From Gracilibacillus salitolerans (GTDB taxonomy: Bacteria > Bacillota > Bacilli > Bacillales > Amphibacillaceae), in contig NZ_CP045915.1 of NCBI RefSeq assembly GCF_009650095.1, positions 4,588,001 to 4,652,000 of the forward strand: a stretch of DNA of 64,000 bases. The letters are read 5' to 3'. The position numbers and the translations under genes are program-made. Of this stretch, positions 10,510 to 48,521 are shown one piece after another. The notes under the pieces are model-generated. The model searched no databases. It was given only the letters and a program-made list of their open reading frames with translations, and was not told where the DNA came from. Position 1 is the stretch's first letter, and the number at the start of each line of letters is the position of its first letter.

Positions 10510-11304
10510 ATGCAATCAGCGAAAGACCGGTCATTGGCAATTAATGTCGAACAGCTGAATGAGGATATTAAAGACTTCCCACAAGTTCACCCAATTACAC
10601 CTGACATGAATACAACACATAAAGGTGTATCACGACTTGTTATGCTGGACCGATATGCATTCAAAGACACAGAAAAAAAGACATTAAAAAAAGGGGACTT
10701 TGTCGTCTTAACGATTAAAGAGGACCCAAAATTCCCTGCAAGAGGTACTGGTTTTATTTTAGAAATTGATGATACAAACCGCAAAGCTCGTATTCAAGTA
10801 GATAATGATTATGTTCATGTATTAGAAAAAGATGAAGAACGTGAAACTGGTGTGATTAAACGTTCTTTGAGCATTATCGATAAACCGTTAGAAGTATATT
10901 ACGAACAAATTGCAAAACGTAATGCAACAGGTCTTGCGGAAGTAGAAACAACAAAAGAGAAACAAAATGAATCGTTTGAACAGTTCTATCAGGAACTGTC
11001 CAGCTTAAACTTTGTTCCAGCAGGTCGTGTCCTTTACGGAGCAGGGTCTCACACAGATGTAACGTATTTCAATTGCTATGTAATGCCTTTTGTAAGAGAT
11101 TCTCGAGAAGGTATCAGTGATCATCGTAAACAAGTAATGGAGATCATGTCCCGCGGTGGTGGTGTTGGTACCAACGGATCAACCCTTCGTCCTCGAAACG
11201 CGTTAGCAAGGGGTGTTAATGGTAAATCATCTGGCTCTGTCTCTTGGCTGGACGATATCGCCAAATTAACACACCTTGTTGAGCAAGGAGGATCAAGACG
11301 TGGT
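10510..11304 (+). CDS. nrdJ: Class II (B12-dependent) ribonucleotide reductase, exon 1
   Basis: N-terminal 265 codons of adenosylcobalamin-dependent ribonucleotide reductase, which reduces ribonucleotides to deoxyribonucleotides. This exon contains YFNCYVMP with a conserved catalytic-region Cys, and SRGGGVGTNGSTLRPR. It ends in GGSRRG at 11304. The uninterrupted reading frame continues into the intron and stops at 11338-11340, giving an aberrant tail if unspliced. Joining to exon 2 restores the family motif GGSRRGAQMIML without loss of frame and gives 852 aa in total, the normal length. GGAGG lies upstream of the ATG. Confidence 0.93.
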
Positions 11305-11620
11305 ATATTTGAGTGCCTCGTCTATAAAAAAACCTCGTGAATTGCTGGGAACTCTTTAAAACTTGTTGGCTACAACGTAATCGGAAACGGTAAACGTGAA
11401 AGCTCAAAAACAACAAGTCGATAAAGACAATCAGCAGCCAAGCTCCTGTGAAATGGAGAAGGTTCAACGACCATCAAAACCACACGTTTTTCGTGGAAGG
11501 GAGTAGAGTAGGAAGCAAGTGCTTCCGAAGTGCGAGGGTATCTATAGATACAAGATATGGTCTGAACTCTAGGGTGACCTAGAGAGTTGATGTAACGAAT
11601 CAACGCAACATTATTATATG
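11305..11620 (+). ncRNA. Group I self-splicing intron in nrdJ
   Basis: 316 nt without an internal protein gene. P1: exon 3' end AGACGUGGU pairs with the guide sequence GCCUCGUCU (11315-11323), with the diagnostic U.G wobble at the 5' splice site (11304/11315) and one U/U mismatch. P10: the 3' exon start GCUCAAAU pairs with AUUUGAGU (11307-11314), directly beside the guide. Conserved core: P (AATTGCTGGGAACT, about 11340-11353), Q (AATCAGCAGCCAAGC, 11429-11443), R (GGTTCAACGACCA, 11461-11473) and S (AAGATATGGTCT, 11552-11563). The intron ends with the required G at 11620. The Q sequence resembles that of the phage T4 td intron as I remember it, suggesting an IA-like subgroup. Confidence 0.94.
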
Positions 11621-13384
11621 GCTCAAATGATTATGTTAAACGATTGGCATCCTGATGTGCTTGAATTCATCATCTCGAAGATGCAAAACCCAAGAATATT
11701 ACGTTATTTGATTGAAAATACCGAAGATGAAACGATTCAGCAATTAGCTAGTGACAAATTGAACTTCACACCACTCTCTACTGACGATGTACAACTATAC
11801 CAAGGTGTTGTCAATTTTAAAAATATGCCTGGTCAAGGTGGCTTCACCGATGCCAATATTGAAAAAGCAGAAGCAGAATTACGTGATGGTGGTTCCTATT
11901 CTGTTCACAACCCTGACTTTTTAACAGGTGCGAATATTTCTGTTTGTATTACCGATGAATTTATGGAAGCTGTAGAGCAAGACCTTGATTACGAATTACG
12001 CTTCCCTGATGTCGAGAATTATACTGCAGAAGAAATGGAACACTACAACAAGCATTGGCACGAAGTTGGCGATGTTAGAGAGTGGGAAAAATTGGGTTTC
12101 GGTGTGAAAGTATATAAACACATCAAAGCAAAAGAATTATGGGACTTGATTAACGTCTGTGCCACTTATTCTGCTGAACCAGGTATTTTCTTCATTGATA
12201 ATGCCAATAAGAAAACAAACGCAACTGCTTATGGACAAAAAGTAGTAGCGACAAACCCATGTGGGGAACAACCTCTCGCTCCGTTTTCTGTCTGCAATTT
12301 AGCAGCCGTTAACTTAGCAAATGTAGCTGATAAAGAGAAAAAAGCACCCGACTTTGATAAATTAAAACAAACGGTCGAAATTGGTGTGCGCATGCAAGAT
12401 AATGTCATTGATTCAACCCCTTATTTCCTAGAAGAAAATCGTGTACAAGCTCTAGGTGAACGCCGTGTAGGTTTAGGTGTCATGGGTCTTCATGACTTAC
12501 TGATTTATTGTGAATCAGAGTACGGCTCAAAAGAAGGTAATGAATTAGTAGATCAAATTTTCGAAACGATTGCGACAACCGCTTATCGTACATCGATTGA
12601 ATTAGCAAAAGAAAAAGGTAGCTTCCCATTCTTAATTGGTGAGACAGAAGAAGAAACACGAAGCTTACGTGAAAACTTTATCTCAACTGGTTATATGCAA
12701 GATATGCCGGAAGATATTCGTGAAGGTGTTCTAAAGTACGGTATTCGCAACTCACACTTATTAACCGTGGCGCCAACAGGTTCAACAGGTACGATGGTTG
12801 GTGTTTCTACTGGACTTGAACCTTACTTCTCTTTCACCTACTATCGAAGCGGAAGATTAGGTAAATTCATCGAAGTAAAAGCAGATATTGTTCAAGAATA
12901 TTTAGACAACAATCCAGATCAAGATTCTGATCATTTACCTAAATGGTTTGTAACAGCAATGAGTTTAGCACCAGAGGCACACGCCGATACACAATGTGTG
13001 ATTCAGCGTTGGGTAGACAGCTCTATTTCCAAGACTGTTAATGCACCGAAAGGATATAAAGTCGAACAAGTAGAGCAAGTTTATCGTCGTTTATATCGTG
13101 GTGGCGCAAAAGGTGGTACAGTTTATGTTGACGGAAGCCGTGATTCCCAAGTCTTAACACTAAAAGCAGAGGAAAATAACTTCTCAGAACAAACCGAACT
13201 ATTTGAAGATGAAGAAAAGAAAGTTGTTATCGTTGATACAGTAAACGAATTAGACAAAACAGACATGTCAGTCGGCTCGGAAGTTGGCGATACATGCCCT
13301 GTCTGCCGTAAAGGTAGCGTCGAAGATATCGGTGGCTGTAACACATGTACAAACTGTGGTGCACAACTTAAATGTGGATTGTAA
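11621..13384 (+). CDS. nrdJ: Class II ribonucleotide reductase, exon 2
   Basis: C-terminal 587 residues of the split nrdJ product, starting with AQMIML. Family motifs: NPCGEQPLAPFSVCNL with an active-site Cys, RRVGLGVMGLHDLL, and the phosphate-binding APTGSTGTMVGVSTGLEP. The C-terminus is a Cys-rich zinc-ribbon-like region (CPVC, CNTCTNCG, CGL) expected to hold the dithiol that re-reduces the active site. There is no convincing ribosome binding site just before 11618, and the true upstream exon lies in the same frame, so this is not an independent gene. A strong hairpin follows the stop. Confidence 0.93.
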   Translation, partial: AQMIMLNDWHPDVLEFIISKMQNPRILRYLIENTEDETIQQLASDKLNFTPLSTDDVQLYQGVVNFKNMPGQGGFTDANIEKAEAELRDGGSYSVHNPDFLTGANISVCITDEFMEAVEQDLDYELRFPDVENYTAEEMEHYNKHWHEVGDVREWEKLGFGVKVYKHIKAKELWDLINVCATYSAEPGIFFIDNANKKTNATAYGQKVVATNPCGEQPLAPFSVCNLAAVNLANVADKEKKAPDFDKLKQTVEIGVRMQDNVIDSTPYFLEENRVQALGERRVGLGVMGLHDLLIYCESEYGSKEGNELVDQIFETIATTAYRTSIELAKEKGSFPFLIGETEEETRSLRENFISTGYMQDMPEDIREGVLKYGIRNSHLLTVAPTGSTGTMVGVSTGLEPYFSFTYYRSGRLGKFIEVKADIVQEYLDNNPDQDSDHLPKWFVTAMSLAPEAHADTQCVIQRWVDSSISKTVNAPKGYKVEQVEQVYRRLYRGGAKGGTVYVDGSRDSQVLTLKAEENNFSEQTELFEDEEKKVVIVDTVNELDKTDMSVGSEVGDTCPVCRKGSVEDIGGCNTCTNCGAQLKCGL

Positions 13385-48374: not shown

Positions 48375-48407
48375 CTCCTCTCTATATTTTAAAATGCTAT
48401 ATGGAGG
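48375..48407 (-). promoter_or_regulatory. Possible ribosome-binding-site sequestering hairpin of ade
   Basis: CCUCCAUAUA (from 48407) can pair with UAUAGAGAGG (to about 48377), covering the ade ribosome binding site. It begins nine bases after the riboswitch P1 3' strand, so ligand binding may act on translation. The alternative pairing is not resolved. Confidence 0.45.
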
Positions 48408-48415
48408 ATTTACCT

Positions 48416-48484
48416 ACACATAGTTTAGCGATTTACGGTCGCTAAGTAGAAACGCCTACGCCCTATTCCTAAGCTTATACATGT
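48416..48484 (-). ncRNA. Purine riboswitch, guanine class (C74)
   Basis: About 69 nt upstream of ade. P1 pairs ACAUGUA with UAUGUGU; then UAUAA; P2 GCUUA / UAGGC around a loop with GG; J2/3 GUUUCUAC; P3 UUAGCG / CGCUAA, a perfect 6-bp stem with loop ACCGUAAAU; J3/1 ACUA. The C in ACUA corresponds to C74 of the xpt guanine aptamer; adenine sensors have U (AUUA). All conserved core segments are in order and at the right spacing. The L2 loop is a few bases longer than usual. Confidence 0.9.
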
Positions 48485-48491
48485 TTTAACC

Positions 48492-48521
48492 ATATTACGA
48501 CTGAAACCGTTTCACAGTCAA
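48492..48521 (-). promoter_or_regulatory. ade promoter with operator-like palindrome
   Basis: TTGACT (48521-48516) and TAATAT (48497-48492) with an 18-bp spacer, placing the transcript start just before the riboswitch. The spacer holds TGAAACGGTTTCA (48502-48514 on the minus strand), a palindrome of 13 bp, one base short of a cre. It could bind a LacI-family protein. Confidence 0.65.

Follow-up and report, generated by a model that had tools for sequence, protein, structure and literature searches.

The class II ribonucleotide reductase gene (nrdJ) of Gracilibacillus salitolerans is split by a 316-nt group I intron without an open reading frame, which, judging by the comparative sequence evidence laid out below, is very probably spliced, descended from a mobile intron that once carried a Vsr-like homing endonuclease gene, deprived of that gene and retained as a nearly harmless insertion. 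Group I introns as such are an already known type, and the interest of this one lies in the hot spot that nrdJ forms around it. The window, to which all positions refer unless another locus is named, is the whole stretch of 64,000 nucleotides that was analysed.

Intron Boundaries and the Host Gene

The nrdJ reading frame, opening with an ATG at 10510, breaks after GGSRRG and resumes at 11621 with AQMIML, and the 316 nt in between (11305-11620) are preceded by U and end in G. The two exons align to positions 6-265 and 266-858 of the NCBIfam model NF005991 (vitamin B12-dependent ribonucleotide reductase), that is, they adjoin at 265|266 with no residue missing or repeated, and the intron junction is therefore exact, just where an earlier sequence-only reading of this DNA had put it. 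That reading had also named the host gene as a class II ribonucleotide reductase (NrdJ), and the family models agree, exon 2 alone scoring 1140.9 bits with NF005991 (cut-off 854) and 460.1 bits with TIGR02504 (cut-off 399.95). The four best full-length matches among named NrdJ proteins are all from Gracilibacillus (96, 95, 93 and 93% identity), in a search from which records very close to the window were possibly left out. The features referred to in the text are as follows:

10510..11304, + strand: nrdJ exon 1, 265 codons from the ATG at 10510 (ORF reading; NF005991 model positions 6-265)
11296..11304, + strand: P1 exon strand, ending in the splice-site U of the U.G pair (window pairing)
11305..11620, + strand: ORF-less group I intron, 316 nt (RF00028, 78.5 bits; junctions; covariation)
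11307..11314, + strand: P10 intron strand, partner 11621-11628 (8 bp), adjoining the 5' end of the guide (window pairing)
11315..11323, + strand: internal guide sequence, the P1 intron strand (window pairing)
11333..11339, + strand: P3 5' strand, partner 11531-11537 (100% of cells paired in 24 sequences)
11338..11340, + strand: first in-frame stop (TGA) when reading from exon 1 into the intron, codon index 11
11342..11347, + strand: P4 5' strand, partner 11432-11437 (invariant across the 24-sequence alignment)
11353..11427, + strand: P5 and its extension, with an 8-bp stem 11361-11368/11411-11418 (pairing, alignment)
11443..11458, + strand: P6 (window pairing, alignment)
11469..11474, + strand: P7 5' strand, partner 11557-11562, forming a pseudoknot with P3 (pairing, alignment)
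11483..11526, + strand: P7.1 and P7.2 hairpins (both-side changes in 4/4 and 5/6 pairs)
11538..11551, + strand: P8 (window pairing, alignment)
11567..11604, + strand: P9 and P9.1 (window pairing, alignment)
11621..13384, + strand: nrdJ exon 2, 587 codons and the stop at 13384 (ORF reading; NF005991 model positions 266-858)
Locus L235, 1598-5671: genes for the alpha and beta subunits of the class I reductase, beside a flavodoxin-like gene (NCBIfam; the last just below cut-off)

Both exons are under purifying selection, since dN/dS between the window and another Gracilibacillus locus, L064, is 0.024/0.286 and 0.032/0.385, i.e., ~0.08 on either side of the intron. The alpha and beta subunits of a class I reductase are also encoded in the genome, each above its NCBIfam cut-off, and NrdJ is therefore not its sole reductase. 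Elsewhere in the window, a purine riboswitch is matched by Rfam on the minus strand (48401-48502, 70.8 bits).

Structure of the Intron and Its Conservation among Relatives

The Rfam group I model RF00028 matches positions 11295-11584 with 78.5 bits (gathering threshold 50, E 3e-18), and this is its only match at E ≤ 0.001 across the 5.09-Mb genome, whose single, chromosome-sized contig agrees with the chromosomal location proposed earlier. In the window, P1 has eight standard pairs and one U.U mismatch, with U.G at the 5' splice site, and P3 (7 pairs), P4 (6), P6 (4), P7 (6), P8 (5) and P9 (7) all form, including the P3/P7 pseudoknot core; the 75 pairs of P1, P3-P6, the P5 extension, P7.1, P7.2, P8, P9 and P9.1, together with six in P7 and eight in P10, are all standard. 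The group I assignment proposed from the letters alone, with its P1 U.G pair, terminal G and core elements, is thus upheld on each point, neither a sub-threshold covariance score nor a failure to form P3/P7 having been found. Two hairpins, P7.1 and P7.2, stand between the P7 5' strand and the P3 3' strand, which we take to be the rule for subgroup IA. The possibility of a new class of intron was dropped, because the anatomy is that of a standard group I intron.

The same structure was examined in an alignment of 24 ORF-less introns inserted at the same site (89 pairs, 2120 cells). Of these cells, 95.6% are paired, vs. 34.7-42.1% after sliding the 3' partners by one to three columns, a control in which the structure, having been drawn on the window itself, is favoured; changes on both sides are seen in 45 of the 89 pairs, with a mean of 20.9 after shuffling and none of 500 shuffles reaching as high. 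P3, P4 and P6 are paired in 100% of cells, P8 in 98.3% and P7 in 97.2%, and a C-G pair of P7 is replaced by U-A in two sequences, which are the lineage-2 introns of the alignment. RNAalifold, run on 22 of these introns without a preset structure, gave both-side changes in 37 of 88 pairs. Within these alignments, then, pairing of the group I core is far above chance.

U at position -1 is shared by all 43 same-site introns and the terminal G by 41 of them, the window's included (the exceptions are L080 and L091). The weakest helix is P10, the outer part of which is paired in 59.8% of cells of the 24-sequence alignment. The 8-bp P10 directly adjoining the guide, which the earlier reading had singled out, is present in the window, but it does not hold as a family hallmark: over the 43 introns, the contiguous P10 has a median length of 3 bp and stays at or below 6 bp except in the window (9 by a greedy count), L064 and L005 (8 each), so that the long form is local to a few Gracilibacillus.

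Splicing in the cell, to which this anatomy points, would begin with attack by an external G on the U|A bond, held in place by the U.G pair of P1; the exon-1 end thus released would then attack after the terminal G, with P10 aligning exon 2, and GGSRRGAQMIML would be restored.

Full, Remnant and Absent Endonuclease Genes

No homing endonuclease gene is found within the 316 nt, either in the ORF list or by search with a Vsr-like protein, as had been claimed, and it is the relatives that seem to tell where such a gene used to be. By length, the 43 introns at this site (A1 hereafter) form three groups: 24 short (309-357 nt), 6 intermediate (462-682 nt) and 13 long (1183-1953 nt). With the intact Vsr-like protein of L157 as a tblastn query, one or both ends of the protein were matched in all six intermediate introns, and most or all of it in 10 of 13 long introns, that of L157 included; at E 1, none of the 24 short introns gave a match. 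The query protein matches DUF559 at 1e-7 (above cut-off) and Vsr at 7.7e-6 (26.1 bits, just below the cut-off of 27), and the gene is inserted in the P5 extension, near window positions 11357-11361. The remaining three long introns (L079, L111 and L171) encode LAGLIDADG-type proteins, as identified by Pfam for L079, whose protein in turn matches the genomes of L111 (G190, 1e-102) and L171 (G386, 1e-118). One of the Vsr-like introns, in L080, is 1953 nt long, with a second ORF of 230 codons following the Vsr-like one, and ends in A rather than G. Within the window's genus, the states are:

G001: A1 intron of 1244 nt, Vsr-like endonuclease in two frames
G006: A1 intron of 640 nt, Vsr-like remnants
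G014: A1 intron of 639 nt, Vsr-like remnants
G016: A1 intron of 462 nt, small Vsr-like remnants
G011: A1 intron of 321 nt, no endonuclease trace
G000 (the window's genome): A1 intron of 316 nt, no endonuclease trace
G012: no intron, empty site, nrdJ open

This series suggests that the ancestor was a mobile intron with a Vsr-like homing endonuclease gene in its P5 extension, and that the gene was cleanly deleted in the window's lineage, leaving a ribozyme that probably no longer moves by itself; the presumed direction is from gene-bearing to gene-less, and the trees are silent on endonuclease loss versus gain. The intron would have been retained because its removal must be exact and because splicing renders it nearly harmless. 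Homing by the endonuclease in the past and immobility at present would be in line with the earlier suggestion that the intron may be immobile, now that the gene its relatives carry is seen to be missing from the window's copy.

The same reading had offered, as an alternative, dependence on an endonuclease encoded elsewhere, and collaborative homing, in which the intron would still be mobile via an enzyme supplied in trans, is indeed described for ORF-less introns of phages (in the accessible part of PMC3984707); an endonuclease-bearing relative of the intron also exists within the genus (G001), though in two frames. The search of the window's genome speaks against it: the Vsr-like enzyme has no match there at E ≤ 0.1, whereas the same search found the enzyme or its remnants in six of nine genomes, positive controls among them (none in G000, G011 and G012), and a LAGLIDADG-type query yielded one weak 61-residue match (E 0.01, 16.4 bits), as compared with 1e-102 to 1e-204 in three of three positive controls. 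The introns of the genus, moreover, form a single clade (97/93), and we consider such trans-mobilization unlikely. The weak LAGLIDADG match itself (G000:C1:247168-247359) falls within a frame of 119 codons, well away from the window.

Intron Sites in nrdJ across the Order

The order was sampled with 397 genomes, 347 of which gave an NrdJ match at 1e-40; from this list, 123 genomes with at least two NrdJ matches were, together with G001, searched again (64 + 60), and 118 gene regions were retrieved. An intron at the exact GGSRRG|A site is present in at least 40 of the 347 genomes, which does not bear out the earlier view that an intron such as the window's is less usual, and the site is occupied in 18 family-level groups. 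Across these regions and loci retrieved before them, inserts were found at seven sites, those at A1 to A4 and at C being group I introns:

A1, GGSRRG|A: 45 loci in 43 genomes, 40 of them within the order sample
A2, GGSR|RG, 6 nt upstream of A1: 26
A3, GGSRR|G, 3 nt upstream of A1: 6
A4, 24 nt downstream of A1: 18
B1, NPCG|E: 47 loci
B2, NPCGEQ|: long inserts in 3 loci, all of which also have group II matches
C, APTG|S: at least 15 loci

NPCGE and PTGST are motifs that we take to be catalytic. A2 and A4 introns co-occur in eight loci, with ~30 nt of exon between them, and five genes (L081, L102, L141, L156 and L177) show two distinct RF00028 matches each, at A2 and A4. At A1, RF00028 scores above gathering in all 24 ORF-less introns and in two of the six intermediate ones, while none of its rows could be assigned with certainty to the 13 long introns (one L070 row being ambiguous).

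The B1 inserts are probably also of the group I type, missed by the general model. More than half of them (28 of 47) are 183-303 nt long, with U before and G at the end in the rows examined, and they resemble a conserved structured RNA (L067, L112 and L176 being among the carriers; 19 inserts were aligned); Rfam gave zero matches on five B1-insert loci even at E 0.01, and one insert shows similarity to 38 phage records, including 9 from Bacillus phages. The ~2.6-kb inserts after NPCGEQ belong to L062, L087 and L102, the loci with group II intron matches. The nrdJ of L070 (G056), which has many in-frame stops, shows matches to both group I and group II introns over 10.9 kb. Among 41 relatives of the window's genome, at least 15 have RF00028 matches above cut-off, several outside nrdJ, in a count with stricter filters that missed some endonuclease-bearing introns.

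In-frame stops are absent from the codons examined in 41 of the 43 same-site host genes, with several in each of the other two, L062 and L070. As two of the 43 introns have no terminal G and two of the 43 hosts are broken, presence alone is no proof of function.

Probable Movement of the Introns and the Question of Regulation

The presence of A1 introns requires 29 changes on the exon tree, at least 17 of which are forced by its starred branches, the tree having been built by a quick method from 166 rows, two long broken ones included. Strong overall conflict is seen between the intron and exon trees: with 34 common rows, each topology is rejected by the other data set (delta lnL 188.8, p-AU 1.3e-53; delta lnL 581.3, p-AU 1.2e-48). 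The exon data further reject a clade of the genus with L158 and L153, the hosts of the nearest introns outside it (delta 155.8), as well as a clade of the second-lineage A1 hosts (delta 133.9), both groups having been chosen after the intron tree had been seen; in the short intron alignment, four single-clade AU tests did not reject the host groupings (p 0.135, 0.075, 0.088 and 0.436), and the intron tree leaves 18 of its 40 inner branches open. The A1 site houses two intron lineages separated by a long, fully supported branch. These trees suggest that mobile-element ancestors entered nrdJ repeatedly in related bacteria, whereas within Gracilibacillus, with its single intron clade, mostly vertical descent with a loss in G012 would fit.

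The nrdJ on the Priestia megaterium megaplasmid pFDU301A (L233 1723-4826) is split at the window's residue and again near residue 481, so a plasmid copy of such a gene does exist, and its similarity to the window's intron reaches 75.8% identity over 75% of the intron's length.

The same distribution bears on whether splicing gates dNTP synthesis, as had been proposed, or, more specifically, whether the intron switches between class II and class I nucleotide reduction in response to, e.g., GTP, B12 or salt. The insertion point within a highly conserved motif, the unusually long P10 of three Gracilibacillus introns and a second reductase available as an alternative would suit such a role. A device of this kind sits poorly with an intron so patchily distributed, however, and with a close relative (G012) that has an open, intronless nrdJ; the intron stretch yields no Rfam family besides RF00028 at gathering, and no sequence feature demanding regulation was found. 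The genome also encodes the class I reductase, evidence for gating was nowhere seen, and we regard regulated splicing as very improbable.

Codons Paired with the Guide

In an A1-bearing gene, the last exon-1 codons are also one strand of P1, and, as far as the sequences compared here go, these codons are nearly fixed. With the broken genes L062 and L070 excluded, AGA CGT GGT is found in 38 of 41 A1-bearing genes, in 11 of the 79 distinct rows that have no intron in zone A, and in none of 26 A2-bearing genes, and the last codon is GGT in 41/41 vs. 26/79, those 79 rows being a nonrandom set of best-scoring intact loci and of genes split only elsewhere. In tree-independent pairs (14 on starred branches, sign test), the P1 9-mer is supported, with an average of 9.2 pairs going the same way and 0.5 the opposite way (p from 0.002 to 0.07, median 0.012), and so is GGT, at 7.6 vs. 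0.0 (p from 0.002 to 0.06, median 0.008). AGA and CGT taken singly give a median p of 0.125 each, and 14 other codons around the site give 0.375 to 1. A2-bearing genes have their own preference before the A2 site, namely CGT in 26/26 and mostly TCC. One A1 exception, L097, reads CGC AGA GGT and has an altered guide pairing with these codons, as judged by eye. Part of this codon lock could stem from endonuclease target choice or co-conversion instead of P1.

A more far-reaching proposal would make nrdJ a standing hub for several intron lineages that pass from one bacterial genome to another, in part on plasmid-borne copies of the gene, each fixing the synonymous codons it pairs with, and some of whose endonuclease-less members, such as the window's with its 8-9 bp P10, were co-opted for control of class II versus class I reduction; taken as a whole, it seems to us a long shot. 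That the intron is a dead, unspliced insertion in a decaying nrdJ, with the class I reductase encoded in the same genome doing the work, could draw on the relative L062, whose nrdJ has several stops and still has its introns, but is hardly credible given the intact exons with their low dN/dS, the strong covariation of the ribozyme and the locked P1 codons. A spliced intron, derived from a mobile Vsr-bearing ancestor, thus remains by far the preferred reading.

Comparison with Known Systems

The closest known company is that of the group I introns in nrdE, nrdF and recA of Bacillus and SPbeta-like phages, which likewise interrupt ribonucleotide reductase or recA genes, in some cases close to conserved residues, and some of which carry homing endonucleases (as described in the accessible parts of PMC3984707 and PMC3653736). 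The window's intron differs from them in its host, a bacterial class II nrdJ split at GGSRRG|A, and in relatives that carry a Vsr-like or LAGLIDADG endonuclease. Similarity at the sequence level extends to an intron in a capsid gene of Bacillus phage SP-15 (71% nucleotide identity over 67% of the window's intron) and to one in a recA-like gene of Staphylococcus phage Romulus (85.7% over 47%); in both, the host gene, different from nrdJ, is interrupted and an endonuclease gene lies downstream of the match. None of the 214 phage records with matches spans 80% of the window's intron at a single location.

The cyanobacterial reductase known as RIR is presumably of the B12-dependent class, judging by a reference title. 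A group I intron in its gene was reported by Meng et al. in 2007 (via PMC12702839, and among the references of PMC3984707, both as far as accessible); it belongs to another phylum and, according to the title of that paper, is linked to an insertion sequence. As to the endonucleases, the accessible text of PMC3984707 names an EDxHD family of Vsr-type homing endonucleases, and that of PMC11878797 a VSR-superfamily group of intron endonucleases in Bastillevirinae; the intact L157 protein appears alike by its DUF559 and Vsr matches, and the Vsr-like proteins of A1 introns may well belong to the EDxHD family, while the window's copy is without such a gene.

The available part of the RNRdb paper mentions more than 100 group I introns curated among its ribonucleotide reductase entries, which makes prior curation of some nrdJ introns likely. 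A literature search by titles and the beginnings of abstracts, with subscription journals mostly outside its coverage, returned no paper on nrdJ introns in Bacillaceae. Little evidence for horizontal intron movement among bacterial species is noted in the accessible part of the review (PMC3984707), and nrdJ introns offer a testable case of exactly that, with a hot spot that records presence, endonuclease decay and absence among related bacteria. They might also serve as a natural in-cell ribozyme test, because the exon bases of P1 are choices among synonymous codons.
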